Origin: Owenia fusiformis | Lineage: Eukaryota > Annelida > Polychaeta > Sabellida > Oweniidae | Assembly (NCBI GenBank): GCA_903813345.2 | Contig: CAIIXF020000009.1 | Location: 1,424,001 to 1,488,000 of the forward strand | DNA: 64,000 nt | Direction of reading: 5' to 3' | Shown: one piece after another, positions 16,507-64,000 of the stretch | How positions within the stretch are numbered: the first letter of the stretch is position 1 | Layout: each line of letters begins with the position of its first letter | Translations under genes and position numbers: made by a program | Notes under the pieces: model-generated | Databases searched by the model: none | Seen by the model: only the letters and a program-made list of their open reading frames with translations | Told to the model about the DNA's origin: nothing

Positions 16507-16630
16507 TATCTGCAAGCAACAAACGATGGATAGAGGATGGCATCGCATATTGGGAGCAAAATACATGTTTACGATTCAACAAAGTGACGAACTTTAAACT
16601 TCCTCTAATGCTTTTCGTCTCTAACGGAGG
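16507..16630 (+). CDS. Exon: astacin domain, N-terminal part
   Basis: The acceptor is TTTTTTAG|TA (an AG at 16515-16516 is an alternative) and the donor GG|GTAAGT. It reads [20 protein letters not shown] and continues LRF. This fits the helix of astacins where Trp and the first conserved Cys (NTCxxF) occur. It enters in phase 1 and leaves in phase 2. The preceding part of the family fold (W...IPY) must be on an exon I could not find. Confidence 0.75.
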
Positions 16631-19600
16631 GTAAGTCATTGCAATTGCTGTCAATATTTATGTATGTGTAAATCGTATAGACCTACGTTAGGAATAACTG
16701 GTGCTCTTGCATACAACACGGTACAGTGTATATCAATGTATCTTCACAAAAAATGTTATCACGTTATCTACAGGATACGCTCTAAAATAAAACTGCCAGA
16801 TCGATTCTATGATTATTTAGCTAATGTACGTATTTTAGAAACAACCTTTACATGTAGTGAGGACTACAATCTGTGAATGATTATATAAAATTAAAAGTTG
16901 TTACCAGAGCGATCTAAACCTACTAATAAATTACGGGTTTTATTTTGAATTGACCGAGAGAGCTTGAAACGAGGATCTCATTAGATAAATATGTCATACG
17001 GGCCCAGCATACTAACGCACTTCCATATCACCATTGTGAATATATTAAAACGAGGTGATCTGAAAGTAATATTGATAATCTCTATAACAAACTACAGGCC
17101 ATTGTTTTACTGAACATGTTATATTTTATCTTATCCCATTAACTAACAATACTGAAGAGCATTGCACCCATCGTTTATTATTAACAAAAATATACATACT
17201 GTAAGTTATTGAATGATTTGAAGTGCAATACAGGGTGTATTCTGCTCAAGAAATTCTGTATTGGTACGAGAAAAAGTCGATTCAATATAGAATATCGAGA
17301 GCACAATATCCTGTATTCCACTTTAAATCATCCTATAACGTTTTTATCGTGTGATCTAAGTTCAATACATTTTAATTAGGTGATTATTCATTTGAAATAC
17401 TCTCTATTATCTATATTGATGCTGTTTCTCTGTACCAATATTATCTGTATTGCTACGGAGAGGACAATTTCAGTAGCAATACAAATTGGAACAGCACAAG
17501 AACTGACCAATCAAAGGGCTTCATTTTACAAAGCATACGATAAATACATGTCTTGGACTAGTACATTTCTTCATTGTATATTACTCCCGTAAAACCGTTT
17601 AGTTTATAAACCATAGCGTCCCCCAGGGCTCAATACTTGGGTCAATATCATTTCTGTTAAACATTAATAAGGCTTAATCTTTGAACGTAGGTCAGCTAGC
17701 ATGAATTTTTACAAGACACCATGAAGCCTGATAAGTTAAGTAGAACCGTCAATTATTATCTTTCTCTAATGCATATTGAAACGAAGGACTATAAATTTCG
17801 TAATGAGAGGCGAATGGGATCTTTTTACATACATTGTTTGAGATTTTAACTGGTAGTTAAGAGGGTATCTTCGTCCCTCGAAGTCTTCCACTACTTAGAT
17901 TTTTCTAGATTTTTGATATGCTTTTTTACTCACCAATGACTATTTATTATTCTAGGTTTATTTTGAATTGTAATTTTTTCATTTATTTTTTTAAGATTTT
18001 ACTGGAGTTAATTGCTTTGATCGTTGATATGCAAGGAACAGTCTGTGATGTTGGGCATTTTGTAAACGTGTTACATCAATGTCTTTATGACAGGTTATGC
18101 TACTATTGTTAATGCACAGTAGACACATGTGTTAATTATTTGTTATAAAATAGGTTTTCAGTTGTGAGTTAATCAAATTTTTAAATGGAATCATGAGATC
18201 AAAGTACTGCTATCCCTCAAATACCACATGCGTTATATTTTCAGGTGCAACTCACCCGTTGGGCTTAAACCAGAACAATATAACCAGATCAGTATTTCAC
18301 CAGGATGTGGTAAAGTACGAGCTTGCAATATCATATCATATGAAAACCAATAATAAACCATTTCCTCGTGTTACATCTAACTTACTAGGATACACAAATC
18401 GCCAAATTCAATATATAGCCCCCTCATATGCTTAAAAGTCACACTTAAAAGAGTTTGTTCGTGGCATCATTGGTTCATAAAACAGTGAACAGCTTTGTTG
18501 CCATGCGTATCCATGCACTTTTACAATTATATAAGCGGCCAAAATTTCGTTTCTGTCGGCAGAGAGAGGGGGTAGTGTCACATATTGCTTTTGAACCTCA
18601 CATATGCCAGTGGGGCCACATAAATCCATAACTCGAGATAAAAAGTCAGGTGTTTGCCCTTTTGCCCATTGACTAGTATGGTGACGAGAATAGTACAATT
18701 ATGTCATTTCTAAGGGCAATATAGTGAAATATGAAACAGCAAGAAAATCTTACGCATTGAACGATATCTAATTTCCCGGGGAAAATTGCCGGTCCAGAAT
18801 ATATTCTAGACCGGTCCATATGGACCAGCACTATGGCGTCACATATTTCTCAGGTCGATATAGTCAATTAAATGCCTTCTAAACTAGCACTAAAACCTCT
18901 AGTACTGGCCCGGCAAGGTGGTAATAATAATGGTTGTTTTGCCAGCCCACGCTTACCACCGACCACGTACAGTGACAAAATAAATGGGTGTACGCGTTAG
19001 ATGTAAGTTGTCATATATTAACGATTCGAACGAAACACTGTGATGATGGTTTTAAAATGTTTATTTGAGGAATATGATGAATTATTCCACAATATGTAAC
19101 ATGTCTTCCCGGGAAAATAACAAGGAATGAAATTGGTATTCAAAAAATCCCGTATCAGATCCCGTATCAGCCAAAATCCCGTATTGGATCCCGTATCAGC
19201 AAAAAGCCCGTATCAGATCCCGTATCCTTTCCCGGTATATCTAATTTCTGAAATTGTTATATGCTAAATATATAGAGGATATCGTATGATTTATGAGTGA
19301 TATGATTTTTATCCACGAATGAATATGATATCTACACGAGCGAGCGTAGCGAGAGAGTGCAGATACCAATATCCACGAGTGGATTAAAATCATATCACGA
19401 GTAAATCATAGGATGTTCTTTTTATTCCATAGTTAAAGTCATCATCAGCATCGTCGGAAATTAAGTGATTTAATTCGAATTTTCCAAATGATCCGGCGAT
19501 GTTGACACTTAGCCTTGTTTTGAGTCTCAAGTAGCAAAAATCCACAAACCATAGCATACGGCGCCGTATGTCATGGCTAAAAAACCGTATGTTATGGTTA

Positions 19601-22600
19601 AGTGTAAATTTGTCAAAAATATCATATTTTACCACTGATTACAAAAATACTTTTATTTTCACATGTTATCCTATGAATATCATGCTAACTATGGAATAAG
19701 ATAAGATATCACGTCATATGGATCGGATACGATTTTAGTGTCGTACACCAAAATTATCTTATGTTGTTATCCCCATATATATTTAGTATCCATGAGATAA
19801 AATTCAATATTTTCATATCTGACACTGTTTTCTTTATAGTGTACTTGTTGTGTTGTCGATGGCTGAATCATTTGTAGAAAATCTTAACATTTAGAATTTT
19901 TGTGTGAAATCATTTTGTTGTATTACTTTTGCATTTTCCCATTATGATCCAAATGTACCAATTAGCTTATAAACTTAGGATTTGTGATGAGATAACATTG
20001 TTTTCTTAGTTGGGACAGGTCGCCCATGAAATCGGTCATTCTCTCGGGCTGTGGCATGAGCATGCAAGAACTGACAGAGGAAGCTACATATCAATTCAAA
20101 GGGCAAATATAAAGAAAGGACCAACAACACTAACAAACTTTGACATTGTTTTGCAAGATAGAATGTCAGCATTAGGAGCAGCTTATGACTTTGGTTCGGC
20201 GATGCACTACGGACGTCAGGTAAATAAAAAGGGCCGAGATAATGTATCAGTGACCTTGTTAATATTTCAATGTCTAAATCTAAATTGTTTCATTATATTT
20301 CGATTTATTGTAAATAGGTATTTTTTCTATTAATGTACAATATTACATTTCAATTACAACAGTAACATGGAATGTAGATTTAAATCCCACCCGAGACATA
20401 ATTAATACCATTCCCGTTAAATTTACGAGTATAAGTATGTTAAGTGGGACCCTCTTCGCTACTCTGCTCTTTCTACAAAGGGTGACCTACTTTTCAAAAC
20501 AGAAGCAAATGTCTATGTCAAAAGCTGAATGGTGTGTTCTAGTATGCCATCTTTACATTAATACCACAATTTCATATACTAGAATAGTAGCAATTCGACA
20601 TTCACGATCCTTTAAAACGCGGGTTAATCATGAATTGATATTCTCAATATTCCTTTAAATCAGGTCAAACGTCAAATAACAAAATTGTGAAAATCGTTAG
20701 ATTTTACTTTCATAAGTCAAATACTTTGATATTATAGGCATTCTCAAATTATGGAGAGGACACAATTCTAACCAAAGATTCCGATTATGAGAGGTCATTA
20801 GGACAAAGGGTGGAGCTTTCCTTTCTTGATATGAAGATTATCAATACATTTTACTGTTCAGGTATGACTGTTTATTTCATGTCAACTCCAGGGCATTCGT
20901 TTTTGTTACATCGGTTTTGATAATGATCAATAGCAAATAATGTTAAAGATCGATAAATCACCCGCACCTGTCACACACCTGTTATACTTTGTTAAAATTA
21001 AACTGTTTTAAACGTCACTGTGAAAATGTCATTTAAACTTTGTTAAACGTTATTAATAAAATGGCACTTAAACTTTACCATGGCAATTAAACTTTAAAAT
21101 GGCAATTAAACTTTACCATAAAAATGGCACTTAAACTGTTTGAAACTTTACTGTCTAAATGGCGCTTAAAATGTGTTAAACTTTACTGCGAAAATGACAC
21201 TTAATTTTTTTAAATGTTGTTTTATTTTACTTTGAAAATTGCCAACGTTATCAGGTCTATCAAACATCTATCTGTAACAAATCCATGTTCCAACACACTT
21301 CAGCATTTCATTTTCATGCATTTGATTTTGATCAGACACATCTTGTTAATAAAAAGAAAAGCACATCAAACATTTGTTTCAAACAATACTATTTCATAGA
21401 TATCCAGTTTTATACTATTTTTGTAGCATTCTATCACCATGTCCCTAAACTTATCTGACAATGTATTTTTCTAATACGATGCCAATTCTGGTTCAACTTT
21501 TTAGTTGATATTTTTGGCATTGTGGCTTTCAATGACAAAGGCTGAAGTGAAAGTTGCTCAGCTATGAATATTGTTGAACAGTGTCCGTCTCAAGCAAAAC
21601 ACTACACTAGTATTTCAAGGCAGAATCAGATTTAGCAAGATCCAATTTTAGAATATTGTGGGCTCATATCATTCCAAGTTATGTTTTCTAAATACATTTT
21701 TAATTACTTTGGAGACTTTAAATATTTTTCTGGCGCTTTGAATTCTTAATGACATCACCAATTTAAAACATCATGGATCTTTTGGGAGATATAAGATTTG
21801 AAATGTTATAAAGGAATATGGCATACAGGGTGGTCCAAAAAAGTGAACCCCTGCAACGGGCCATATTTCCCTTATTACTCTCAGGAATCCTTTCATATTT
21901 TCACATGTTGTAGAGTAGGGTCTAAATTTTTTGTTGGTACGATACATTTTTCTTAGTCTTGAAATTTGCAGAAAGCATAAGCCCTAACCAAATATTACTG
22001 AAAATGGATAAATGTGATTTTCAGCATCCGCGATTATACAACCCATCAACACCCTTCCCCTGGCATTTTTTTTAGCTGTAGTCTTAAAGAGCCATTATTT
22101 TTTGACTTTGTTTGGTTTTGAATCATGCACATTATGGTGTAAAAACTAGCATCCTACCTCAGTTAGTTGCAAAGATATTGTGATCCAAAGAAATGTTCTA
22201 AGTTTCCATAGACGAAAACTCTTCCAAGCGAAATTGCAACATACCCCTATATGATCCTGAAATGTCAATATCTTCATTAACCATGGTCCAATTCTAGTGA
22301 ACGTACTATGGCTCAAAACATTGAATTTTAGATTTTCTTTTGATTTTCTAAAGATATTTGATAAAGAGCTTCTTAGACTCCTGGTCACAGGGGGCAACTT
22401 TGTCCCCTTCTATCCATTTGTGTAGGTAACATGTCCCTTAACTGTTGAACAATTAAAACGGCTTCAAAATGATCAATGAAAGTGTGAAATGTGTTTTCTG
22501 CTCAAATAGTATCCCATTTGTCATATGGTAGGGTTTTAAACTTGTATCTCTAACTGAAAGCTGTTTTAAGAATACCTAACATGTTTCAACAATTTCCATG

Positions 22601-25600
22601 AATTACATTGGTAAAATTTTGCACAATCGAATTTTTAGGCATGTTCGTTTAAGTCTTGTAATTTCTTGATTTGGTTAAAAAGTCACCGATAACTTCCATG
22701 ATTGTATTGTATGTTTATTTATGCATAATGCTGTTTCTATAATGACATAAAAGATAAGTATGCCGCCTACCTTAGGAGTGACGTCATACGTTCCCGGTTG
22801 CATTGTCGCAATATTAGATAAAACTGATGTTTGGTTTTTAAGTCGGAATAAACAATAAACTCGATAATATTCCTCACATACGTGTTCATCTCGGTCACAT
22901 ACGAGGGAAGATCCGAAAGTTTCCGGCCTAACATAGTTCTAGTTAATGGATTTTCAAAATGATAGTGTCATTTTTCAATGTAGTCTCCCTGTACTTCGAT
23001 GCACTTGGCCCATCTTCTTGGCAGCATCTCAAGTCCAGTTCTGAAGAAATCAGGAGCATGACCCTCCAACCACTGGTTAACAGCTATCTTGACCTCATAA
23101 TCATCATCATCATCATCAAAGCGTTGCCCTCGTAGAGATTTTTGAGTTTCCCAAATAGGTAATAGTCACTGGGTGCTTGATCTGGAGAATAGGGTGCGTG
23201 CGGTAATAATTCCAGATGGCATTCTTCCGCTGCATCACGAGCAACTTGGCTTGTGTGAACAGGTGCATTGTCCTGTTGATGCAAAACTCCAAGACGGACT
23301 TTGTGTGGCCTGGTTTCATCAGGTTTAACTTTTAAAGTACGCAACAAAGCAGCATAATATTCTCCATTCATTGTAGTACCTCTTGGAAGGTAGTCTACTA
23401 AGATAGGACCTTCACAGTCCCAGAAAATGGTGGCCATCATCTTTTTGTTGGATGGGGTGGTGCGAAACTTCTTTGGGGGTGGGTACCCCATATGTTTCCA
23501 TTGCATTGACTCATGTTTGGTTGAACTCAAAATGACGCACCCAAGTTTCATCAAAAGTGACTATTCTCTCCATAAAACCTTGTGGATCAGTGTTATACAT
23601 GTCCAAATGCTCTCTTGCAACAGCAACTCGTTTTGTTTTCATGTCCTCTGTATGCATACGGGGTACCCATCTTGAGCTTAAATTTTGCATGTGTAAATGT
23701 TCATGAATTATTCTACAAACGGTACCATATGATAATCCAGTTTCTTCTACAAGTTCACGTATAGATTTCCGCCTATCTTCCAATATTGTTCGATGTACAA
23801 GATCAACATTTCTATCTGACAGGTATTCTAGAACGTGGTGCACCATCAATTGATTCCCGTCCACGTTTAAATTCAGCCACCCAAAATTTTACAGTAGAAT
23901 AGGAGGGAGCACCTTCCCCATACACATCCTTAAGTCTATCGTAGATTTCCTGCCCTCCATTTTCTTCTTGATATAGAAACTTTATTACAGCTCTATATTC
24001 AGTTTTCTCCATTGTGATCACTGATGTGCAGCCACTGTGACCTGACCTCATTATGAATATTCTCAAATTAGGCTGTGACCCCTAGAGGTTAATCATATGC
24101 ATAAATTATGTTCATACATAAGCAACATTTGAACTGTGGTTGCTCTCAGACATCGGGAACTATGTTAGGCCGGAAACGTTTGGATCTTCCCTCGTATATA
24201 TTGGCCAGGACGCCCAACTAGTGTAGCCTGCAGGGGGTCCAAGTGATGACAATAAAAAGTCATAATGCTTTATTTAATGAAAATCTATACTTTTTAAAAG
24301 GTAAAATAAAGTTAATTGACAAATATTTGCAAATGCTACTGACTTTTCGAAATAGTGTTTTTTCTCCCCTATCCCCACTTTTTCAAATTTCACTAATTGG
24401 ATTTATATTTCATTGTTATGTGGTTGTAGCAAAATCATTGACCAAGATTATGTGGGAATAATACCAATACAAGCATTTCTTTGTTTTCTTACTAAATCAT
24501 TTATGTCCATCTGTTGTTCTTCGTGAAATATGAATGTTAAGGACAAAAACAGTTTGAAAGAGTAAACGACTGTGTGCTACAACATGTCCACTGAATAACT
24601 TATAAACAGTTAACACAGTATCAACTTTATATTGCAATAAGACTGCAATAGCAATCAAATAATAGTAATACCGACAGAGATAAATCAAATCAAATCATCT
24701 ATATCATTATAAATGGATAACATATTTTGAACATAGATTCCTGTAAAGAGTCCCAACAATATCAGACACTCGATTGGGTTGCCTGTAAAAACAACGGCTA
24801 TAGAGATCCGAACAGATGCGACTCGTGCAAATGCCTTGATGGTTGGAGTGGGCAGTTTTGTGACCAAGTGGCCCCATCTGTAGGAGGTAAGTGAGCGTTA
24901 TTATGGTATCATCATGATACCATTATTACAAGGTAATTTTAAAATCATAATTATTACCACCTTGCCGGGCCAGTTCTAGGGGTTTTATTGCTAGTTTAGA
25001 AGGCGTTCATTTTACTATATCGACCTGAGCAATATGTGACGTCATTGTGGTGGTCAAGTGACCAAATGTTGAATGTTGAAAAGAATTCAGACCTGTCGAG
25101 AATGCATTAACGACCGGCAATTTTCCCCGGGAAACTAGATATCGTTCAGTGCGTAAGATTTTCTTGCTGTTTCAGTCCTGGTCGTTAACGGTGGTAATAA
25201 TACTAATAACGTCATTTCTGCGGGCAAAATAGTGAAATATTGGACCTTGGACCTTCGGCCCTTGCTCCAATATTTCACTATATTGCCCTTTGAAATGACA
25301 TTATTGTACCATTTCACGATTATGCTTTAATGTTGAAAATATGATATCATGATTATAAGGTATTATTAAAGTCATGATATTATGATGATATAAGTGGTGT
25401 TCTTAGGATGCATGATAACGCATAATGCCAGGGTGGAGGATAATGTTACGTAGTATTATATAAACAGATATTTGTAAGTGAATGATACTTGGATGCAAGA
25501 GTATTTTAGGAAACATGATTCATGATATCATCTTTTTGAGGATATATTTGCATTGGTGGTTGTTCATTGGCTGATATAACTTAAAGTGATGCGTTTTTAA

Positions 25601-55600: not shown

Positions 55601-58600
55601 AGTAGGCTCCTATACGTGTACATGTAAACCAGGATATAAAGGAGATGGCAGAGAATGCACTAGAGGTAAAACAATAAAAAAATCTAAAAATGCACATGGA
55701 AATCATCACTAAGTAATACTACCATAACTCCCACAATAATGAAAGCCAATGGTTGAAATTGCATGCTGGAAAAGAAAAACTCGGGATTTAGAGAACTGTT
55801 CAGTAAAATAGTATTGTTAGATTGAAGGGGAATCTCTACATGATGGTATTACACCGTAGCCCACGAAGCATGCAAACAATATGTTTAATATTGTAGTAAT
55901 CTGTTTTACTCCGTGTGTCAGTGTCAGTTGCTTTTGTACATCCCGTAACATATTCAAGTATTCAATGCATCGTTGGCTTGTATTGTGTCTGTATTGTATT
56001 ACATTTCTCTGACTCAAATATGTATGAGGATTTTTTAGTAATTTTATATGGCTTCTGTTCAGCAGTGTTGTTAAATAACATGAAATATTAACTTTCTTTA
56101 TCTAACAATGTTTTTGTTCAAATTCTTTATTAGTATAACAACAATTAATTCTAGAGAAAATTTCAGATGAAACATCTTTCACTTTCGCTTGCCCGACATT
56201 CAGTATTTTGAATGGCAAAGTGAAATTTCTTGAACGTGAAAACCGATCCGTAGCTAGGATAAGCTGCAAGAAGGATTACATTTTATCTGGGGAGAACAGA
56301 CTTGTTTGCAAGAAAGATGGAAAATGGCACAAAGAAAAACCAATCTGTGAAAGTATGATCAAGTTCTATTTTCCTTAGAATATTTTTCTTATAGATAATA
56401 ATAGTTTGAATCAAAGAGCAAGACATACTTTATTATATTGACAAGTATCTAGCGAGATCTATATATTTACTTATAAAAATTAAATGTTTATCTCATTTAT
56501 ATTTTTGATTTTATTCTTTTCGGAATGTTACACATTATTGTTGTCTGTTGAACGCATGTATGTTGTACATGGAACCTAAATTGTACTGGATTATATAATA
56601 TTGCTTTATATAATTTGACTTGTGATTGAGTATACGCGTACTGAACAATTTGAACACATGTTGTTGCCTAACGTTGTGTTGATTGTATTATTGTATCGTC
56701 GTATTTTGCTAACAGTACCTCATTGCAGGGTGTTTCAAAAAATGCAACTCACATAATTAACAATGCATATCTTTTTGACCGATAAATGTTGAACAATCTT
56801 TTTGACAGAGGTTAAGGTAGTTTAATGTTCTTTAACGTAATGTAGTAAAAGAGCGGGTGGTTATCTCAAACAATTTTAGATGATTCTAACTTGAATTATG
56901 AATATTGAGTTGATCATGAACATGGCTATATCTTTTAGACCAATTCATTATCTCTAAGAATAGTACAGGGTGTTTCATATGTTTGGACGCACCCCTCTAA
57001 ACTATTACATGTAGCATTTCAATCCTATTATGTTTTATGCCATCTTGTTCCTTATGAAAAGTTAAATATATTACAAACATTCAAAATCAAGGGGCTTTCC
57101 AGAAAAAGATACAACATATCAAAATATGCGGGTACAATCATTTTTGCAGCCAGTTCACTTTGTTGGTTACCCATCTCTAGTGATAAAGGTGGAACCAGCC
57201 ATTTTATAAATCCTGTATATATATCTTTGTGAATTATTGTCACACATATAATTTATTATTATTTATTTGATGTGTAATATATGTTTTTGATCACCTTTAT
57301 CACTGATGTTCTTCAGGGTTGCACTTATTGTCACGCCATTTTTGATACATGATCGTGTTATATTGTGATTCATGATCGTATCGGCAATACAATATGAATG
57401 TATGAGCGTGCATTAATGTACAGACCCGTTGAAATGGAGAATTGGGGTGTGTTGGTTGCGACTGCACTCCCTATGACACCCCTCACTTAAACTGAAAAGG
57501 GAACTTTTTATTATTTTTTTCTAATTGACTCTAACACTTTAGACGTGCATAGAAATCACTGAATAGCATTGTAACGCGTGCATACACCTACCAGAAAACA
57601 GTGAAATTAATTAGATTTTGATTTTTTTGTATCAAATACAAAACAATTCGAAAAAATCATAAAATAGTCTCCCTCCCAAAATAATTGAATAAATCCAATT
57701 CTGATTTTTTTCTTATATTTCTTACACTTAAAGTATTGGTAAAAGGATCTATCAAGAATCATCAGATGTCAAAAATCAACCTGGTATTGAACTATAGATG
57801 AACAGTGAAAATGATTTTTACCTTACCTATATTAAATTTAGAACTAAGGCGGGCTGTTTTATGTTACAGACTGAATGTGTTCATTATGTAATGATGAATG
57901 TAGGGATGACCTATGTCATAGATTGCTCAGATGTCATTTCTTTAGGGGTGAATTGAACGCCATGCCCTATTTAATAGTTTCGATTCAACCCTTCCATCTC
58001 TGTATTGAATGAATTTTTAATCTTACCAGAAGACATACAACTACATTGGCTACTAGGTAATAATATGTGTTTTTGAATTATTGGGATGACATTGGTTCTA
58101 AACTTGATTCTCTTTCCAGGAGATTTTTTAAGAAAGTATATATTACATTGAAAGATTGATTTTAATTTGTTTTATATTTGCATTGCACCCTTTGAGGTAT
58201 GGCAGCGTTATAAAGGTGAATAAAACAAATACAATTGAGTTTAACTCAGTATTTTTTTCAAAACATCACTTAAAGTGAAAAATTAGTAAATAAAGCTGAT
58301 CCTTGTATAACCCCTTTAATTATTCTCTTTGCCAAAATCTTATTCAATGGAATATTTAAAAAAAATTGAATATGTAAAGTAGGATTCATAATATCATTGA
58401 CATTTTAAGGTCAGAAATATCCAATTTTTACCATTTTACCATTACCATTTTGTTTTTAATAAAATTACCACACCCAAATGAAATATCATTACATATCAGG
58501 ATCAAAGTTACCTCTTATTTTTTATACTTACTGCTATTATTTGATTGTTTTTTTTTCAAACGCATATTTTTGACAGTAGCACCTTGGGGCAAGCCGTAGA

Positions 58601-61600
58601 GTCCTTTTATGCCACTATTTTGACTCCAGACGAGTAAAATGAACTGGCAATGAATCAATCTATAATGTCCATAAATCATTCATAATAATCTTGACCCAGC
58701 CATTGGTTTAGCCTACACAAGCCACTTAAAAAGCAATTTGGCGCATACTATACTATATGCTAAGTATTAAATTTAACCATCGTGAAGTTCGGCATATTAA
58801 AATCCAAACCTGTTGAATAGTTTGTGCCTAAATATACTACATTGTATAAAATGGAATTCAACCAAATGATTTTAAAATGCGTCTGAATTAGATATGCATA
58901 CAATGAAGTTCAAAAAAATAATTTCAAGGATTTTTACCAAATTAAATTGGTGTCTAAATGCACATATAAAATAAAAAAAAACATAAAGAACTACAACTAG
59001 ATTTTGAAATATCTTATTTACTGTTTTATCTCATACGTGTATATCTTATCCGTACTCTTTTAGGTATTCTTGAGATTCGGAACAATGACCCTAGTCCAGA
59101 CACGCACTGTAGTCATTTCAAGTATGGACGAGCGGAAGGAGACAAAAAAACTAAGAAATTCACTCCAGTCAAAACAATTCGACCCATCAAATATTTTGGA
59201 GTTACCCACCATGAGATATACGTGAGTTTATCTGATAAGAATTTAATATTCCCCATCAAGTATTTTAGAGGTTAACAACGTAAAATATACGCACGTTTAT
59301 CTGAGAATAATTTAATTCACCCGAAAACACGCATTTTGGAGTTGTCCACCGTGAGATATATGTTAGTTTATCTGATAATAATTCGCCAGTCAAAACCGTA
59401 AGTTGTTTTATTCCATAGTTAGCATGATATTCATAGGATAACATGTGAAAATAAAAACTGTATTTTTGTAATCAGTGGTAAAATATGATATTTTTGACAA
59501 ATTTTCACTTAACCATAGCATACGGTTTTTTAGCCATGACATACAGCGTCGTATGCGATGGTTTATGGATTTTTGCTACTTCAGACTCAAAACGAGGCTA
59601 AGTGTCAACATCGCCGGATCGTTTGGAAAATTCGAATTAAATGACTTAATTTCCGACGATTCTGATGACGACTTTAACTATGGAATAAAAAGAACATCCT
59701 ATGATTTACTCGTGATATGATTTTAATCCACTCATGGTTATTGATATCTGCACTCTCTCGCTACGCTCGCTCGTGCAGATATCATATCCATTCGTGGATA
59801 AAAATCATATCACTCATAAATCATAGGATATCCTCTATTTATACATTGGATAAATACGTTAGCACAGTTATCATTTAAGGATTAAAACGAATGACATATA
59901 TATTTATTTTATTTAGGAGATGAATGTACCTTAACGCATGGCAAAATCGTTTAAAATGAAAATCCATAATACATAATTTTGATTTCTGTTTAACTATTCT
60001 GAAAGTGTACTTTCTCCCTCAAAATCTAATTTTCAAATAATAAAATTGATAGGGATCTCAAAATAGCAATATGTCTGTTATAAAGTAAAAAATCATATTA
60101 TAGTATTTACTGTGATGTGTGTGTTGCTAGAGGTATCTTGTTTAGCTTCTAACATATACATTCACTATTTATTTAAAGAGACATAGAATACTGTACAGGA
60201 TGATCACTAAGTTCTGGGAATTTATCTGTAATTTAATTATTTTTCAACGAATTTCCTTGAAATTTTCAAGGTAAATGAGGAATGTAATTTTAGGCTGGAT
60301 GAAACAATCTTATTGTCATATGATATCACAATGGATAATTATTGTTACTATAGCAACATGACAAATGGCATAGCGGGTCAAGCAAAATTTGAATTCATTT
60401 TTATTTTACCCGATCCAAAAGTATGGTTAATTAATACCTATTTGCTTGACATATTTCTGTGACTTTTTATGTTTTCAAATATTTCTAACTTTGTTTTCTA
60501 AACTAACACCTGTATTGTGATATAGGAGCGTACTTTGCTCTATTTTATTATCATTCGTCAGACTCTCAAAGTCAAAATCACAACTCAAAATAGCCGGAGT
60601 TATCTTCCATTATGAATATGACCCCTCTCACTCCTCAAACTGCCCATACTACTTTAAAAGAATTGGGGTTCAAACAAGTTGGTTATGCCCCATATAAACC
60701 ATATAATATTCACCACATGAAGCATCATTAGGCTTCACAACATTTGGGTGTTGAAGGTACTTGAAGCATCATATGAGAAGTCATAAGTTTGATTCCGATA
60801 AGGGACTGATTCCAACAGCTTGAGCAAATCGTCAAGGGATACCAAATGGAAGACTAGAAAGCGTTTTTATGTACTAGGTTTGTCAACAGTGCATGTGCGT
60901 CCAGGCTAGTGGAAACAGTTATAAATGAAATGATCATCTCAGCAATGAAGAATACTTCTGAATAAATGACTTCAACAGTACTATTCTGCCTTTAGTACAA
61001 GTAGTTTGAACCATCCAGGCAAGATGAATATGTTTTGCAGGAAACGTTAAGATTAACATCAGTCACAAGTTGCTGACCCGCGGGCCTGTCAATTCAGAAT
61101 TGTACAATGTATATCTGCTTTCAACTCGAATGGTTGAGAAATCTTGCAATGGCAGACCAATTCCCAGAACGTAATGATCACCCTGTATATATATATTTAT
61201 AATTGTATCTAGATCAGTCAGTTGGGGCATGTGGCATTCGATAGATCAGCTAGAAAGGTAGCTCCGGACAATATGGCAAACTATTCAATGATAGCTGGGT
61301 TTATCCAAAGTGAACCAGAGAGGTTCCACGTGTATCATCAAATATACGTAACACAAGCAGACATCCTTGAATGTGCTAATGCAAAGGTCGTCGCCCAATC
61401 TGCAAATGAGGAGTTTAAGGCAGAACAACTTATTGTTATAACGTGGACTAACGAAGATACTCTCTGCCCCAATTGTACGGAGGTGAGGATGTCATATCAT
61501 TATCTAAACCGTTTACAAACTAATCCCAAACGTACAATAATGGCATATGTTAAGTAAGAAACGTGCAGTTGAAGACAAAAAATGCCAAACAAGACTGAAA

Positions 61601-62265
61601 TGTAAAGATCGGAAATTAAAAAAGGAAATTATATTCTCTAGTACTAGTTCATTGTTCCTTTCATATGATTTTACTTACTGATAATTACAATTTGACGCAA
61701 CGCATACACAGGGTGGTTCAAAACCATTGGACACTGATATTTCAAAAATAAACATTTATTTTTAATTAAAACATGTCAGATTATATTCCAGTTGATAGGA
61801 GAATCTCACTATACTTAATTTGGTAAATCATACCATTTCAAATATGGTTTTAAAAACCTTGCAAAATCAAATTAAATGATCACTAGCATCATTAAGACGC
61901 TGTTGAGACAATTAATTCTGGGAAGCAGTGATTAGGCGGATGAATCGAGGAACATTCTCCTTCAAATATTTGTATGGCTTCTGGGATCTATGGCTTGGAA
62001 CACCATCTCGTTGCAAATGTAATGAACTGAATATGAGACCAGGAATAACTGTGTAGGACGTATTGATTCATCCATCTTAATCAGTGGCCCCCTGATAACC
62101 CAATGCCAACATCTATTTTTTTAGTGAAAATTTAACTCTGCTACAACGATTTCTTTTGCTTTTAGATTGTCATTGTTCAGTTGGCCTTAGTAACAGGAAA
62201 TGGTGGATTAACATATGTCATAATGGACTACAGTATGTCCAAGTCAGCTGGTGCGAAGAATTTGG
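16507..62265 (+). CDS. Astacin-EGF-CUB-[X]3-EGF18-CCP-NIDO multidomain gene (28 exons, partial)
   Basis: A secreted zinc metalloprotease joined to a long adhesion-type tail. The exons are 16507-16630, 18245-18314, 20010-20219, 20738-20861, 24737-24886, 25808-25917, 26114-26256, 26452-26582, 26984-27316, 27590-27913, 29072-29199, 29307-29505, 29664-29801, 29993-30115, 34324-34452, 35665-35787, 40970-41830, 44653-44781, 45371-45496, 46022-46144, 46388-46510, 46860-46994, 49231-49365, 55528-55665, 56167-56352, 59064-59221, 61222-61482 and 62166-62265. All junctions are GT/AG and all phases match, giving about 1,680 residues without a stop. From 26984 on, nearly all module boundaries are phase 1-1, the classic pattern of exon shuffling. 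The signal peptide, propeptide and first strand of the protease are missing upstream; the gene continues past 62265 in phase 1. Family knowledge: NIDO is often followed by AMOP and VWD in mucin-4-like proteins. Two neighbouring genes, split somewhere after the CUB, cannot be excluded without transcripts. Confidence 0.75.
17213..17337. repeat. Small inverted-repeat element
   Basis: ATGATTTGAAGTGCAATACAGG at the left (first 20 bases ATGATTTGAAGTGCAATACA) and its inverse at 17308-17333 enclose about 75 bp. It lies in the intron after 16630; the rest of 16631-18244 has no recognised content. Confidence 0.55.
18245..18314 (+). CDS. Exon: astacin domain, GC-S-VG to GC segment
   Basis: Too short to show as an ORF, but it completes the codon from 16630 and reads [12 protein letters not shown]...ISISPGCGK, the family's GCxSxVG...IxIxxGC block before the zinc helix. 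The acceptor is TTTTCAG and the donor AAA|GTACGA, leaving in phase 0 as the next exon requires. The family spacing of two residues between Cys and the following hydrophobic-Gly pair is met. Confidence 0.75.
18694..18932. mobile_element. MITE family P, copy 1
   Basis: Inverted relative to copies 2 and 3: it starts with the TCATTTCTAAGGGCAATATAG hairpin side and ends CCGGCAAGGTGGTAATAATA. It contains the CCGGTCCAGAATATATTCTA palindrome. Confidence 0.65.
19148..19240. repeat. Short tandem repeats ATCCCGTATCAG
   Basis: Seven imperfect CCCGTATC(AG) blocks in about 90 bp, with alternating spacers (AAAATCCCGTAT, AAAAGCCCGTAT). They lie directly beside the repeat at 19268-19705. Confidence 0.7.
19268..19705 (-). 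mobile_element. Repeat family Q, copy 1
   Basis: About 440 bp, present again inverted at 59405-59840 with roughly 95% identity by eye. It has two parts: a hairpin (19268-19425) whose stem includes TATGATTTATGAGTGATATG and a GCGAGCGTAGCGAGAGAGTG centre, and a 285-bp part bounded by inverted TTCCATAGTTA. The latter encodes on the minus strand an 81-codon ORF ([20 protein letters not shown]...). The ORF is intact in both copies but shows no known motif. Confidence 0.75.
20010..20219 (+). CDS. Exon: astacin catalytic core
   Basis: It reads [20 protein letters not shown]: the complete HExxHxxGxxHExxR zinc-binding signature with the catalytic Glu. It is followed by TDRG and, 50 residues on, by the Met-turn SAMHYG with the Tyr ligand. 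All catalytic residues are present, so an active protease is expected. The acceptor is TTTTCTTAG, the donor CAG|GTAAAT, phase 0 in and out. Confidence 0.93.
20738..20861 (+). CDS. Exon: astacin domain, C-terminal part
   Basis: It reads [11 protein letters not shown]...[22 protein letters not shown]. This matches the family end (TIxPK..., iGQRxxLSxxDxxxINxxYxC), including the last Cys of the protease disulphide. The acceptor is TATTATAG and the donor TCAG|GTATGA, phase 1. Confidence 0.9.
20985..21220. repeat. Degenerate minisatellite around AAATGGCACTTAAACTTTA
   Basis: About eight imperfect copies of a 20-30-bp block (AATGGCACTTAAACTTTACC and variants) lie in the intron after 20861. Confidence 0.6.
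21825..22440. mobile_element. Single mariner-type end in intron
   Basis: TACAGGGTGGTCCAAAAAAG at about 21825 is a typical Tc1/mariner-type terminus next to TA. I cannot find a matching opposite end before the complete mariner at 22902, and no transposase is readable, so this is a one-sided fossil. The rest of 20862-22901 shows nothing else I can name. Confidence 0.4.
22902..24194 (-). mobile_element. Mariner element, both ends present, 1293 bp
   Basis: The ends are inverted copies of about 40 bp (CGAGGGAAGATCC...GTTTCCGGCCTAACATAG), each flanked by TA (22900-22901 and 24195-24196). The length is typical of complete mariner elements. The minus strand encodes the transposase across several frames. 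The terminal repeats differ from each other at a few positions, so the copy is not brand new. It is inserted in the intron between the protease core and the first EGF module. Confidence 0.9.
23000..24050 (-). pseudogene. Mariner transposase (DD34D), frameshifted
   Basis: The probable start is the Met at about 24012, beginning [13 protein letters not shown], the usual N-terminal helix-turn-helix region. The chain then continues in three more frames. One shift lies near 23815-23860, one just after FDETWV at about 23515, and one at about 23130 after the FGKLK block. The first Asp is in FDETWV, the second in [10 protein letters not shown] and the third in APSDYYLF, exactly 34 residues after the second: a DD34D catalytic set. 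With at least three frameshifts it cannot make a working enzyme. Confidence 0.85.
24737..24886 (+). CDS. Exon: EGF-like module after the protease
   Basis: It reads DSCKESQQ...[18 protein letters not shown] then [12 protein letters not shown]. The CxNxGYxDPxxCxxCxCxxGxxGxxC pattern is the EGF variant that follows the catalytic domain in many invertebrate astacins and precedes a CUB, as here. The acceptor ACATAG was chosen over the later CAG at 24765 because only it keeps the frame (phase 1). Donor G|GTAAGT, phase 1. Confidence 0.85.
24955..25312. mobile_element. MITE family P, copy 2
   Basis: It starts TTATTACCACCTTGCCGGGCC and contains TATCGACCTGAG and GACCGGCAATTTTCCCCGGG, with an inverted GGTGGTAATAA at about 25190. 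It then continues into a second hairpin (CGTCATTTCT...AGTGAAATATTGG and its inverse up to 25305). Other copies are at 18694-18932 and 31575-31885. Confidence 0.65.
25808..26582 (+). CDS. CUB domain (exons 25808-25917, 26114-26256, 26452-26582)
   Basis: Three exons, with phases 1-0, 0-2 and 2-1, encode one CUB domain of about 125 residues: an extracellular beta-sandwich that binds ligands or substrates. Hallmarks are QCGGLREA at the start, [10 protein letters not shown] (family SPxYPxxY), KCTWLIT (CxWxI), [12 protein letters not shown] (VxLxFxxFxL), then RFCCAELP and a [12 protein letters not shown] block (family CG...NxLxVxF). The spacing of the middle cysteines (LGCSY...EMQCKNEW) is unusual, so disulphide pairing may differ from the standard two. 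It follows directly on the EGF module, the common astacin order. Confidence 0.85.
26984..27316 (+). CDS. Exon: unknown domain X, copy 1
   Basis: A single phase 1-1 exon of 111 residues. From [14 protein letters not shown] it runs through [34 protein letters not shown], then VDFPED and a final [12 protein letters not shown]. The same order of landmarks (Y, RPxY, YI, WxIG, P, W, terminal hydrophobic-C) recurs in copies 2 and 3. I do not recognise the domain with certainty; short extracellular modules with a Y...GxPxY...W pattern are frequent in invertebrate secreted proteins. Mostly beta-strand by pattern. The donor GTGGGT is preferred because the following exon needs phase 1. Confidence 0.75.
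27590..27913 (+). CDS. Exon: unknown domain X, copy 2
   Basis: A single phase 1-1 exon of 108 residues: [46 protein letters not shown], a long [13 protein letters not shown] loop, WSVRVGSM, and an end with Ala in place of the Cys seen in copies 1 and 3. It lacks cysteines altogether, so any disulphide of copy 1 is absent here. The acceptor is TTTTCTAG and the donor G|GTATGC. Confidence 0.75.
27914..29071. other. Intron, nothing recognised
   Basis: An AT-rich intron of 1.16 kb between copies 2 and 3 of domain X. The 64-codon ORF at 28739-28933 shows no motif or splice framing. No clear element ends. Confidence 0.5.
29072..29505 (+). CDS. Unknown domain X, copy 3 (exons 29072-29199, 29307-29505)
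   Basis: This copy is split by a 107-bp phase-0 intron. It reads [31 protein letters not shown], then after the intron [37 protein letters not shown] and VKMECLDG. The landmarks match copies 1 and 2; the start and end cysteines match copy 1. An intron in only one of three copies implies intron gain or loss after duplication. The exit phase is 1, leading straight into the EGF array. Confidence 0.75.
29664..30115 (+). CDS. EGF modules 1 and 2 (exons 29664-29801, 29993-30115)
   Basis: Module 1: [17 protein letters not shown], then [12 protein letters not shown] and GFTGDGTSC. Module 2: [39 protein letters not shown]. Each has six cysteines and the CxDxxxxYxC or CxNxxxxFxC hydroxylation site of calcium-binding EGF. 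Module 2 also has the N-terminal DVNE calcium ligands; in module 1 the Asp is replaced by Ser. Each is a phase 1-1 exon with clean AG and GTAA junctions. Confidence 0.9.
30116..31574. other. Intron, nothing recognised
   Basis: First part of a 4.2-kb intron. There is no ORF or element end that I can support. Confidence 0.45.
31575..31885. mobile_element. MITE family P, copy 3
   Basis: TTATTACCACCTTGCCGG at the left and GGTGGTAATAA at about 31787 form the ends. Inside are TATCGACCTGAG and a perfect-looking palindrome GGACCGGTCTAGAATATATT...CCGG. It is followed by a second hairpin (AACGTCATTTCT... to ...AGAAATGACGTT) as in copies 1 and 2. Copy 1 (18694-18932) is in the opposite orientation. Confidence 0.7.
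31900..32520. repeat. Palindromic and dispersed-repeat segment
   Basis: GACGTTATTGGCCCCCAC near 31917 and its inverse near 32090-32115 (CACGTGGGGGCCAATTTG) make a palindrome. The stretch 32425-32520 (GCCTTGCCCAAGTCG and CTATGACCGCCTTGTAC) is a third copy of a sequence present twice, inverted, at 39490-39545 and 40250-40315. Confidence 0.55.
32932..33923. mobile_element. Palindromic mariner derivative
   Basis: The ends CAGGGTGTCTCAAAAAAATG and the inverted version at 33900-33923 sit next to TA. The two halves (32932-33340 and about 33560-33923) are inverted copies of the same transposon 3' region. The left half, minus strand, still reads a transposase C-terminus ([13 protein letters not shown]...LKDNIQREI); the right half carries a more decayed copy on the plus strand. 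There is thus no catalytic region, only two facing tails. Confidence 0.75.
33924..34323. other. Intron; one more mariner-like end
   Basis: The stretch 33990-34115 (ATATGATAGGCTGGCAGGAA ... GACCATCCTGTAA) resembles the right end of the remnant at 4926-5790. Just before the next exon a 12-base block TGTGAACGAGTG occurs twice, 31 bp apart, the second being the start of the exon. Confidence 0.5.
34324..34452 (+). CDS. Exon: EGF module 3
   Basis: [41 protein letters not shown]: six cysteines and the CxDxxxxYxC site, phase 1-1. The acceptor is CTGTTTAG and the donor AG|GTGATA. It is the parent or sister of the broken exon at 35336-35465. Confidence 0.88.
34640..35295. repeat. Degenerate GAGGTCAAAA...TTTTTCAACTTGCTTCAAA repeats
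   Basis: Five or six imperfect copies of a block about 100 bp long, each with GGTCAAAAAKGTCAAAA followed by TATTTTTCAACTTGCTTCAAA. They lie between EGF exon 3 and its decayed duplicate. Confidence 0.6.
35336..35465 (+). pseudogene. Decayed duplicate of EGF exon 3
   Basis: It reads [20 protein letters not shown], clearly paralogous to exon 34324-34452 along its length. Three of the module's key residues are changed: the CRC pair has become CLW, GYTG has become GCTG, and the final Cys is Phe. The acceptor region is also altered (the only AG gives a frame with an immediate TGA), while a GTGAAA donor remains. A spliced product would be out of frame, so I treat it as a dead exon. The surrounding repeats suggest how it was duplicated. 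Confidence 0.8.
35665..35787 (+). CDS. Exon: EGF module 4
   Basis: [39 protein letters not shown]: a complete calcium-binding EGF, phase 1-1. It closely resembles the units of the next exon ([13 protein letters not shown]), so it is likely the module from which that array grew. Confidence 0.9.
36341..36942. mobile_element. MITE with CCTACTATCACACCAAACTA ends
   Basis: The inverted ends at 36341-36370 and 36910-36942 share CTATCACACCAAACTAGTTC. The roughly 600-bp interior is richer in GC and in AACG blocks than the surroundings. No ORF of note. Upstream, 35788-36340 holds nothing I recognise apart from a C9 run at about 36265. Confidence 0.65.
37070..38800. mobile_element. Palindromic mariner derivative, large
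   Basis: The outer ends are CAGTATGTTCCAAAGGTAGC and the inverted GGTTCCAAAG-type end at 38780-38800. The arms 37270-37775 and 38015-38500 are inverted copies. The left arm, plus strand, reads a transposase fragment around [19 protein letters not shown] (second catalytic Asp); the right arm has the same on the minus strand, broken. A further element end (TTGGAACGCCCTG) lies at 37990-38012 in the centre. Confidence 0.7.
39034..40848. mobile_element. Palindromic mariner-type element with nested repeat
   Basis: The ends CAGGATGGCCCAAAAAAACG and the inverse (CGTTTTTGGCCCATCCTG) at 40830-40848. About 250 bp inside each end is also inverted (TTTTGAAAATGCATA blocks). The centre contains another inverted pair (39480-39545 and 40250-40320) shared with 32425-32520. 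ORFs at 39356 and 39647 are without motif. Non-coding, probably an element inside an element. Confidence 0.6.
40970..41830 (+). CDS. Exon: EGF modules 5-11, seven tandem units
   Basis: One 861-bp exon, phase 1-1, with seven 41-residue calcium-binding EGF units of 123 bp. The boundaries are 40970-41091, 41092-41214, 41215-41337, 41338-41460, 41461-41583, 41584-41706 and 41707-41830. Units 2-5 ([20 protein letters not shown]...) are almost identical even at silent sites; unit 6 has a few changes, and units 1 and 7 are the most diverged. Unit 1 has His in place of the conserved Tyr in [10 protein letters not shown]. No introns separate the units, unlike all other EGFs in this gene. The acceptor is CTACTTTAG and the donor CAC|GTAGGT. 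Confidence 0.93.
42176..42690. repeat. Minisatellite, 11 copies of 46-47 bp
   Basis: The unit contains TGATTTGGTTCAAATAGTATGCACTTGTGTCAGTTGACC (shown here as its parts: TGATTTGGTTCAAATAG and TATGCACTTGTGTCAGTTGA). From the fifth copy on, units ending CAGATG alternate with units ending CCAATG, giving a 93-bp dimer period. The copies are nearly identical, so the array is young. It starts about 350 bp after the tandem EGF exon. Confidence 0.92.
43188..43478 (+). pseudogene. Recombinase-like N-terminal fragment
   Basis: A 96-codon ORF beginning [20 protein letters not shown], with balanced amino-acid use and a helical pattern ([20 protein letters not shown] ... LSELTADIL). It recalls the N-terminal SAM-like part of tyrosine-recombinase-derived proteins (KIAA1958/Crypton type), where NTKK...W/F..dF and a leucine-rich segment precede the catalytic domain. 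No catalytic part follows; the ORF stops beside a hairpin. It lies in an intron of the main gene in the same orientation. The family link is by resemblance only. Confidence 0.4.
43488..43617. repeat. Hairpin, about 55-bp arms
   Basis: The left arm 43488-43545 (GACCTCTCCA...GTTTACTGTCAAAATTATAT) and right arm 43560-43617 are inverted copies with a loop around CGGCCTACGG. It starts about 10 bp after the recombinase-like ORF ends. It could be a terminator-like or end structure of a mobile element. Confidence 0.7.
43618..44652. other. Intron; repeat copy at 43940-44060
   Basis: 43620-43760 and 43790-43870 repeat pieces of 42950-43080 (GATTTGGTTAAA, ATTTAAAAGT, AAAACGTCATATATGATA). 43940-44060 belongs to the dispersed family also at 6300-6410 and 49560-49680. 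Nothing coding. Confidence 0.5.
44653..44781 (+). CDS. Exon: EGF module 12
   Basis: [40 protein letters not shown]: a complete EGF with the Y-containing hydroxylation site. The first calcium ligand Asp is replaced (AVNE instead of DVNE). Phase 1-1, acceptor TTCCAG, donor AG|GTTTGT. Confidence 0.88.
45371..45496 (+). CDS. Exon: EGF module 13
   Basis: [40 protein letters not shown]: a calcium-binding EGF, one residue longer in the last loop than its neighbours. Phase 1-1. Confidence 0.88.
45667..45915. mobile_element. MITE with CAGTGGCG ends, 249 bp
   Basis: It begins CAGTGGCGAATCAGG and ends CCTGGATCCGCCACTG (inverted), flanked by TAGCC on both sides (45662-45666, 45916-45920). The interior is rich in GGCC and poly-purine/pyrimidine runs and contains GGCCTTAAGGCC palindromes. 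Elements with CAGTGGCGGATCC ends are common non-autonomous DNA elements in animals; the superfamily is not assigned. The 132-codon ORF across it is not a gene. Confidence 0.75.
46022..46510 (+). CDS. EGF modules 14 and 15 (exons 46022-46144, 46388-46510)
   Basis: Module 14: [39 protein letters not shown]. Module 15: [39 protein letters not shown]. Both have all six cysteines and calcium-ligand positions (module 15 with DDDE) and are phase 1-1 exons with good junctions. Confidence 0.9.
46860..46994 (+). CDS. Exon: EGF module 16
   Basis: [20 protein letters not shown], then [21 protein letters not shown]. The first loop is four residues longer than in earlier modules, a variant shared with modules 17 and 18, so these three form a subfamily. 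Phase 1-1. Confidence 0.9.
46995..49230. other. Intron with transposon remnant
   Basis: 48240-48720 is a diverged relative of the palindromic element at 32932-33923: ATGTCTCAAAAATGTAACAT at the left, then a decayed plus-strand transposase tail around 48600-48690. TATAAAAGGC at 47729 looks like a TATA box but no gene start follows. ORFs at 47074 and 47990 show no motif. Confidence 0.5.
49231..49365 (+). CDS. Exon: EGF module 17
   Basis: [41 protein letters not shown]: a calcium-binding EGF with the longer first loop. Phase 1-1, acceptor TATTTTAG, donor AAAG|GTAATT. Confidence 0.9.
49735..54300. mobile_element. Long inverted-repeat segment, 4.6 kb
   Basis: 49735-50045 and 53870-54300 are degenerate inverted copies; for example ACTCGCTGCATATATGGAAC at 49810 faces GTTCCATATATGCAG at 54195, and AGAGACAATACT faces AGTTATTGTCT. 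The arms are full of ATATGCA and ACTCA blocks. The 3.8 kb between them (50046-53869) has no gene I can support; ORFs at 51716 and 52141 are motif-free. Possibly an old foldback or deleted transposon in the intron between EGF modules 17 and 18. Confidence 0.5.
54301..55527. other. Intron, nothing recognised
   Basis: AT-rich, with a G9 run at about 55113. 54360-54410 weakly matches 44190-44240 (TTCTTGCTAGG...TTTACAGTTTT). No exon or element end is visible. Confidence 0.4.
55528..55665 (+). CDS. Exon: EGF module 18
   Basis: [41 protein letters not shown]: the last calcium-binding EGF seen, with the longer first loop. Phase 1-1, acceptor TTTTTCAG, donor AGAG|GTAAAA. Confidence 0.9.
56167..56352 (+). 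CDS. Exon: sushi/CCP domain
   Basis: It reads [41 protein letters not shown]: four cysteines, the NGxV, SCxxxYxLxG and GxW...PxC marks of a complement-control module of 58-60 residues. A single phase 1-1 exon, as usual for this domain. It marks the change from the EGF rod to the NIDO part. Confidence 0.9.
56353..59063. other. Intron; mariner-like ends only
   Basis: CAGGGTGTTTCAAAAAATGC at 56732 and CAGGGTGTTTCATATGTTTG at 56968 are single transposon-type ends; 56845-56965 matches the M1 MITE family. From 57430 to 59063 I see nothing but AT-rich DNA. Confidence 0.45.
59064..62265 (+). CDS. NIDO domain (exons 59064-59221, 61222-61482, 62166-62265)
   Basis: Three exons (phases 1-0, 0-0, 0-1) give one domain of about 170 residues. 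It opens [12 protein letters not shown], then [20 protein letters not shown] (family: FFG...iYVnxnGxisF). It continues with [31 protein letters not shown] (family vvTWxxV), and [20 protein letters not shown] with MDYSMS (family NTFQxvLxTDGxxSFvifxY). It matches the NIDO domain of nidogen, alpha-tectorin and mucin-4-like proteins, found in matrix or apical surface proteins. The exon at 61222 starts at the second AG (GTCAG|TTG), since the first one gives a stop. The gene continues beyond 62265. Confidence 0.82.
59405..59840 (+). mobile_element. Repeat family Q, copy 2
   Basis: Inverted partner of 19268-19705. The 81-codon ORF (59475-59720, [20 protein letters not shown]...) is open here too, with about a dozen replacements. 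The hairpin half is 59695-59840. Located in the intron inside the NIDO domain. Confidence 0.75.
60196..61185. mobile_element. Mariner-type element, 990 bp, no readable transposase
   Basis: The ends CAGGATGATCACTAAGTTCT and the inverse (AGAACGTAATGATCACCCTG) each lie next to TA. The interior contains no transposase motif that I can read. It ends only 36 bp before the NIDO exon at 61222, so its right end supplies the sequence just before that exon's acceptor. Confidence 0.65.
61700..62165. mobile_element. One-sided transposon remnant
   Basis: CAGGGTGGTTCAAAACCATT at 61711 is a mariner-type end; no partner end was found. It occupies most of the intron between the last two NIDO exons. Confidence 0.4.
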
Positions 62266-63930: not shown

Positions 63931-64000
63931 TGTGTGGCTAGGGATGTGCAGTGTTCACTGCAGACATCCACTGATTGAGATTCTAGTGCGATATTCCTTT
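63931..64000 (-). mobile_element. Second mariner 3' fragment
   Basis: TGTGTGGCTAGGGATGTG...CAGACATCCACTGATTGAGA repeats 63459-63522 in the same orientation with about 15% differences, and runs off the window. It belongs to the same transposase family as the neighbour at 63037-63725. Confidence 0.6.

Follow-up and report, generated by a model that had tools for sequence, protein, structure and literature searches.

Multidomain astacins (family M12A), among them BMP1/tolloid, meprin and the nematode NAS proteins, share an astacin domain followed by EGF and CUB domains, a zinc-binding motif of the form HEXXHXXGXXH and a Met-turn, and astacins are proteases whose targets, activated or cleaved, include growth factors as well as proteins of matrix and mucus. 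The BMP1/tolloid order is astacin followed by CUB-CUB-EGF-CUB. NIDO occurs with EGF or sushi domains in nidogen, SNED1 and mesh/SUSD2, none of which is known to contain a protease, and it is followed by AMOP in MUC4 and the MUC4-like mucins. A 2023 survey of astacins includes sushi and VWF but neither NIDO nor AMOP in the domain list of its Fig. 1, gives EGF domains 'in up to six copies' and FXGDI as the common prodomain motif, describes MAM- and EGF-containing astacins of other phyla as apparently not membrane bound, and contains 0 occurrences of either 'mucin' or 'nidogen' in its main text (PMC9848320). Sea-anemone MUC4-like proteins are described with N-terminal CUB, ZP or FN3 domains, and 'astacin' has 0 occurrences there (PMC9080433).

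We analysed a stretch of 64,000 nucleotides from Owenia fusiformis (the window; assembly GCA_903813345.2, contig CAIIXF020000009.1, here C9, positions 1,424,001-1,488,000 of the forward strand), and searched for paralogues in the same genome (498,259,871 bases in 525 contigs). An exon chain was rebuilt by reading frames around each domain and then checked as a whole by script. The chain at 16507-62265 on the plus strand has 28 exons, all with an AG acceptor and a GT donor, with consistent phases and no internal stops, the same count and the same uninterrupted passage from the catalytic to the adhesion half that a prior sequence-only reading had proposed. These comprise four astacin exons, one EGF exon, three for CUB, four for a repeated domain that we call X, twelve for an EGF array, one sushi exon and three for NIDO (Table 1). 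The domain order is astacin, EGF, CUB, three copies of X, 18 EGFs, sushi and NIDO, with AMOP outside the window and then a stop; with two exons past the window the gene reads as 30 exons and 1836 residues with a single terminal stop.

This order matches none of the systems above. The astacin-EGF-CUB-X order is not that of BMP1/tolloid, and the domain orders of nidogen, SNED1 and mesh/SUSD2 differ from it as well. MUC4-like mucins are not known to carry an astacin head with X, and the window gene, as far as it was read, has no VWD, mucin stretch or helix. Relative to the astacins in the 2023 survey, as represented in its domain list, it has 19 EGFs, X domains, NIDO and AMOP after the protease (PMC9848320). 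Among the open-access papers listed by our searches, none was found to describe an astacin joined to NIDO or AMOP, in line with the proposal that no described protein unites the two halves. These searches covered papers, and the same order may already be present, unremarked, in the annotations of other animals.

Table 1. Exons and domains of the window gene (window numbering; AMOP positions continue that numbering past 64000)
Feature	Position	Strand	Phase	Remarks
Astacin exon A	16507..16630	+	1-2	First exon identified; does not mark the gene start
Astacin exon B	18245..18314	+	2-0	Same-phase candidate sites in C11
Astacin exon C	20010..20219	+	0-0	Zinc motif; Met-turn SAMHY
Astacin exon D	20738..20861	+	0-1	End of catalytic domain
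EGF exon after catalytic domain	24737..24886	+	1-1	47-60% identity to paralogues
CUB exon 1	25808..25917	+	1-0	Pfam CUB 44.6 bits (spliced piece)
CUB exon 2	26114..26256	+	0-2	
CUB exon 3	26452..26582	+	2-1	
Domain X copy 1	26984..27316	+	1-1	No Pfam match
Domain X copy 2	27590..27913	+	1-1	
Domain X copy 3, exon 1	29072..29199	+	1-0	
Domain X copy 3, exon 2	29307..29505	+	0-1	
EGF 1 of array	29664..29801	+	1-1	158 bp after X copy 3
EGF 2	29993..30115	+		
EGF 3	34324..34452	+		
EGF 4	35665..35787	+		
EGF 5-11	40970..41830	+		Seven EGFs in a single 861-bp exon; 123-bp units
EGF 12	44653..44781	+		
EGF 13	45371..45496	+		
EGF 14	46022..46144	+		
EGF 15	46388..46510	+		
EGF 16	46860..46994	+		
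EGF 17	49231..49365	+		
EGF 18	55528..55665	+		
Sushi domain	56167..56352	+	1-1	Pfam Sushi 38.7 bits
NIDO exon a	59064..59221	+	1-0	Weak C11 match (E 0.64); phases close the sushi-NIDO gap
NIDO exon b	61213..61482	+	0-0	Pfam NIDO 29.5 bits for a+b+c
NIDO exon c	62166..62265	+	0-1	Lacks 35-40 residues relative to C11 and C9a
AMOP exons	65269-65498 and 79571-79810			Stop codon included

The spliced astacin piece matches the Pfam Astacin profile from position 18 to 189 with 172.2 bits (E 1.3e-50, cut-off 22.5), and the zinc motif and a SIMHY-type Met-turn with its tyrosine lie in the same exon. The family motif EXXRXDRD reads EHARTDRG, the last D being replaced by G, where the three paralogous loci described below keep DRD. 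With a high profile score and with the zinc and catalytic residues retained, the change is read as variation at a single position, and it lowers our confidence in a predicted active astacin while leaving that assignment in place. Position 16507 is not the start of the gene: the signal, the prodomain and the catalytic part before profile position 18 are missing from the chain. Neither a signal-like start nor a prodomain nor a furin-like site was seen in the window gene, and no signal and prodomain exon was found in the 36.5 kb upstream of exon A using the prodomains of two paralogues (C11 and C9a) and motif patterns. The best prodomain match, at 8313-8444 (E 0.084), sits in an ORF without a Pfam family and was rejected. 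Near-identical peptides are encoded around 7906 and 8682 (within 7906-9105), near an ORF without a Pfam family.

At the other end, NIDO scores 29.5 bits with its first exon added (Pfam cut-off 25) and is shortened in its C-terminal part. An open stretch at 60240-60419 was a candidate for the first NIDO exon but was discarded, as its phases do not fit, whereas those of exon a do. It had been suggested that AMOP and VWD exons might lie beyond position 64000; an AMOP domain is indeed there (28.6 bits, cut-off 25), and the stop follows 9 residues past its last cysteine, but a VWD was not found for the window gene, either as a C9 match in the genome-wide list or with a convincing E-value using VWD pieces from C11, although the C11 gene has one. 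By eye, no Ser/Thr-rich stretch or membrane helix is seen in the 1836 residues. Because the gene stops after AMOP with no VWD found, we do not class it as a MUC4-like mucin. Within the EGF array, the first four EGFs were scored and are supported by Pfam EGF_3/EGF_CA. A further EGF-like stretch at 35336-35485 was rejected as an exon, being a decayed copy of the EGF 3 exon that has lost cysteines and has no fitting acceptor.

Matching phases had been offered as an argument that the two halves belong together, but this argument does not discriminate: 16 of the 28 exons are 1-1 and every domain boundary falls in phase 1, which lets any two modules agree, so that phase agreement is only weak evidence of adjacency. 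A chance control for phase 1-1 EGF exons using splice-site scores gave nine bins, all of them on the plus strand, and no bin in any of five block shuffles. Intron lengths are more informative at the protease end. The two junctions singled out for checking, CUB to X1 and X3 to EGF 1, have exact introns at 26583-26983 (401 bp) and 29506-29663 (158 bp), and EGF 1 and EGF 2 are separated by 191 bp; these short introns link X and the initial EGFs of the array to the protease. Further along, the EGF array contains introns of 4.2, 5.2 and 6.2 kb, and one of 14 kb lies ahead of the last AMOP exon; in principle a gene boundary could hide in these.

AMOP and astacin matches alternate along C9. The upstream tandem neighbour (C9a) keeps the domain order of the window gene. 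It starts with a prodomain containing FQGDV and a furin-like site, followed by astacin, EGF, CUB and two X domains, and after a 32-kb gap continues with a third X and an EGF array that is interrupted by a further X; two stretches that look sushi-like by eye, NIDO exons and AMOP complete the order; the matches are those on the plus strand, and for the EGF array those below E 1e-4. Its AMOP, at 24.0 bits, falls just under the Pfam cut-off of 25, and the frame of the last AMOP exon ends 11 residues past the last AMOP cysteine, compared with 9 in the window gene. Four partial active-site exon starts (LGTIAHEIGH) precede the real exon in C9a (L012 1531-1991), the last three 104 bp apart. The downstream neighbour (C9c) was read at both of its ends: astacin, EGF (matches to two queries), a weak CUB (E 0.008) and two X matches near 1.556-1.575 Mb, and part of a NIDO and part of an AMOP 0.1 Mb away, near 1.682 Mb.

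A fourth locus, on C11, was pointed to by minus-strand astacin, NIDO and VWD matches, and is compact, with the order pro-astacin, EGF, CUB, X, EGF, NIDO, AMOP, VWD and membrane helix. Its N-terminus has a signal-like start (by eye), an FQGDI prodomain, an RVKR site and four astacin pieces; the prodomain motif FXGD(I/V) is thus shared by C11 and C9a with the multidomain astacins. Its zinc motif reads HEIGHSMGFFHEQSRPDRD; at the Met-turn, SVMQY stands in place of SIMHY. Three X copies lie in one open frame, another frame contains three EGFs and an X, and a further X follows. A single open frame of 5393 codons (16.2 kb) then contains, by pattern count, 33 EGFs, together with a repeat part rich in Ser and Gly; the next EGF exon begins about 0.2 kb after it, and NIDO follows that exon. 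As this frame extends from the EGF array to within about 0.2 kb of the EGF that precedes NIDO, no room is seen for a gene boundary. From the prodomain to NIDO, recognised coding pieces are nowhere more than about 2.3 kb apart. C11 matches counted as EGFs were those at E below 1e-6, and the search with C11 pieces around the window gene used plus-strand matches.

The far end of the C11 gene shares with MUC4-like mucins not only NIDO and AMOP but also VWD, EGFs, Ser/Thr-rich stretches and a hydrophobic helix. NIDO scores 67 bits and VWD 46.9, and an AMOP-like domain scores 20.4, below the cut-off of 25; further EGFs come after VWD, along with a Thr-rich stretch and a hydrophobic helix that has basic residues behind it. 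One stretch that looked SEA-like gave no Pfam match. Among candidate splice sites, phases identical to those of the window gene are available on both sides of astacin B, the EGF, CUB2, CUB3, NIDOc and AMOPa, and at the donors of astacin C, astacin D, NIDOa and NIDOb, the C11 sites having been chosen among several listed candidates.

The closest NIDO-AMOP relative of the C11 gene is a locus on C1, where NIDO, AMOP, VWD and EGFs stand behind two open frames rich in Thr, one of 4603 and one of 7982 codons. The Thr-rich frames of this giant mucin-like gene lie at G000:C1:24913710-24963543 (L019, L020, L008-L011), upstream of NIDO-AMOP-VWD. The 54 kb before the first NIDO exon contain no match to astacin, CUB, X or the prodomain at E 0.1, the sole match to the astacin half being one weak EGF (E 0.009), and no astacin is among the matches listed for C1 12.85-36.52 Mb (the best 150 of 211 candidates scored). 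The locus looks like a MUC4-like mucin that may lack a protease; the 4603-codon frame, the first of the Thr-rich frames, begins 3.7 kb from the edge of this stretch, so that only 3.7 kb of the 54 kb precedes it. The NIDO-AMOP-VWD scaffold may thus also exist alone. Elsewhere on C1 (G000:C1:55420711-55486822) there are open frames of 8849, 7135, 1952 and 1088 codons and many VWD matches.

The repeated domain had been described as triplicated and of unknown kind, and the window gene does carry three copies of X, none of which matches a Pfam family at E 0.1. An eight-sequence profile gave no convincing match to PDB sequences (best E 0.052). An AlphaFold model of two single-exon window copies is mediocre (pLDDT 67.5, pTM 0.66), and a PDB fold search with it gave no convincing match (best E 0.98). 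Two single-sequence searches of the genome returned 69 and 67 matches at E 0.01. The position of X relative to astacins was compared from 142 listed astacin starts, the X starts of both searches (near-duplicates merged) and one further start, with X falling into 37 same-strand clusters; the lists are lower bounds, and the clusters include tandem copies and are not all independent. A listed same-strand astacin exon lies within 30 kb upstream of 17 of the 37 clusters and within 30 kb downstream of two, where about 0.004 per cluster is expected, and 20 of the 37 have none listed upstream; X therefore often, but not always, accompanies astacins. For six X clusters at G000:C8:31371499-31530684, the astacin list has no entry in the 30 kb upstream.

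The fusion is very likely to be real, and we consider it highly probable that one gene encodes a chimeric extracellular protein composed of astacin, EGF, CUB, three X domains, an 18-EGF rod, sushi, NIDO and AMOP before its stop, within a family on C9 and C11. The sequence itself shows the domain order, the open frames, the splice sites, an intact zinc motif and the recurrence in paralogues. The core of the sequence-only reading, that an astacin and an EGF-sushi-NIDO part with a repeated unknown domain belong to one protein, is borne out by C9a and C11, where the order recurs, and by C9c at both ends; in C11 unspliced frames connect EGFs with X, and likewise the EGF array with the far end. An improbable alternative is that two adjoining genes, an astacin-EGF-CUB-X(-EGF) protease and an EGF-sushi-NIDO-AMOP protein, were duplicated together along C9. 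Such a pair could be accommodated by the large introns inside the window gene's EGF array and by the 32 kb that separate the second X of C9a from the third, and the C1 locus, with its NIDO-AMOP-VWD and no astacin-half match in 54 kb (3.7 kb ahead of the first Thr-rich frame) or listed astacin match across 12.85-36.52 Mb, suggests that the scaffold may stand by itself. Two genes are difficult to reconcile with C11, where the gaps from prodomain to NIDO are small and the 16.2-kb frame bridges the halves, and with C9a, in which X, a frequent companion of astacins, sits inside the NIDO-side EGF array. It is exceedingly unlikely that an assembly or duplication artefact set unrelated exons side by side, for although tandem repeats occur in and around the window gene, the order recurs on two large contigs (C9c at both ends) with about 20-60% amino-acid identity by domain.

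A less remote alternative, though still an unlikely one, is that the fusion family is real but the window copy is decaying and no longer makes an active protein. The prodomain exon missing from the 36.5 kb upstream, the short NIDO exon c, the change from DRD to DRG and the degenerate EGF exon at 35336-35485 would all fit with decay. Against this, 30 open exons with canonical splice sites run up to one stop, the position of which is close to that in C9a, and the zinc and Met-turn motifs are kept. The codon changes among the units of the seven-EGF exon are mixed: units 2-5 differ from unit 1 by 9-11 synonymous and 8 non-synonymous changes, the latter below what neutral drift predicts, for which the ratio of non-synonymous to synonymous changes is about 3:1, but unit 7 differs from the other units by 11-13 synonymous and 15-18 non-synonymous codons. 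The window copy may be a fast-changing or partly eroded family member, and the case for a fused architecture is carried by C11 and C9a more than by the window copy itself. With the single-gene reading, the family in this genome would be small, with one gene on C11 and, on C9, two tandem genes and probably a third.

A plausible mode of action can be drawn from what these domain families do elsewhere. The signal-like start and furin-like site of C11 and the prodomain and furin-like site of C9a suggest that the protein would be secreted as a zymogen and activated by a furin-like enzyme; calcium would stiffen the EGF rod, the NIDO-AMOP end would bind matrix or mucus, and the protease would thereby be held in one place, cutting matrix or mucus proteins there. 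This would fit the role put forward in the sequence-only reading, that of a protease tethered by its own scaffold. In C11 the same head would stand at the tip of a giant membrane-anchored mucin, and the site would be the cell surface. We lean slightly towards a hitherto undescribed animal protein family that ranges from secreted matrix forms, the tandem C9 genes, to a giant membrane-anchored mucin with an activatable protease tip, the C11 gene, of about 8000 residues by a rough estimate. We infer that the C11 form arose by the joining of an X-type astacin to a C1-like gene. If a protease is built into its own matrix or surface scaffold, the place where it cuts would be fixed in the gene itself, and the NIDO-AMOP module would be one that can be captured by an enzyme. 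With X-type astacins, a C1 scaffold that may lack a protease and joined forms all in one genome, the family offers a case for the origin of giant chimeric proteins. The C11 gene would also be a membrane-bound astacin by a different route, set against the apparently unbound MAM- and EGF-containing astacins of the survey (PMC9848320).

Several repeats and one transposon remnant were noted within the window gene. Units 2, 3 and 4 of the seven intronless EGFs at 40970-41830 are 99-100% identical, reflecting recent tandem expansion, and the intron that follows this exon contains 11 copies of a 46-bp tandem repeat (42178-42699). A 69-bp repeat of 2.7 copies at 59193-59383 takes in the end of NIDO exon a and its donor. 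The intron after the astacin exons harbours, on the minus strand at 23087-23888, the remnant of a mariner-like transposase (Transposase_1, 77.4 bits).
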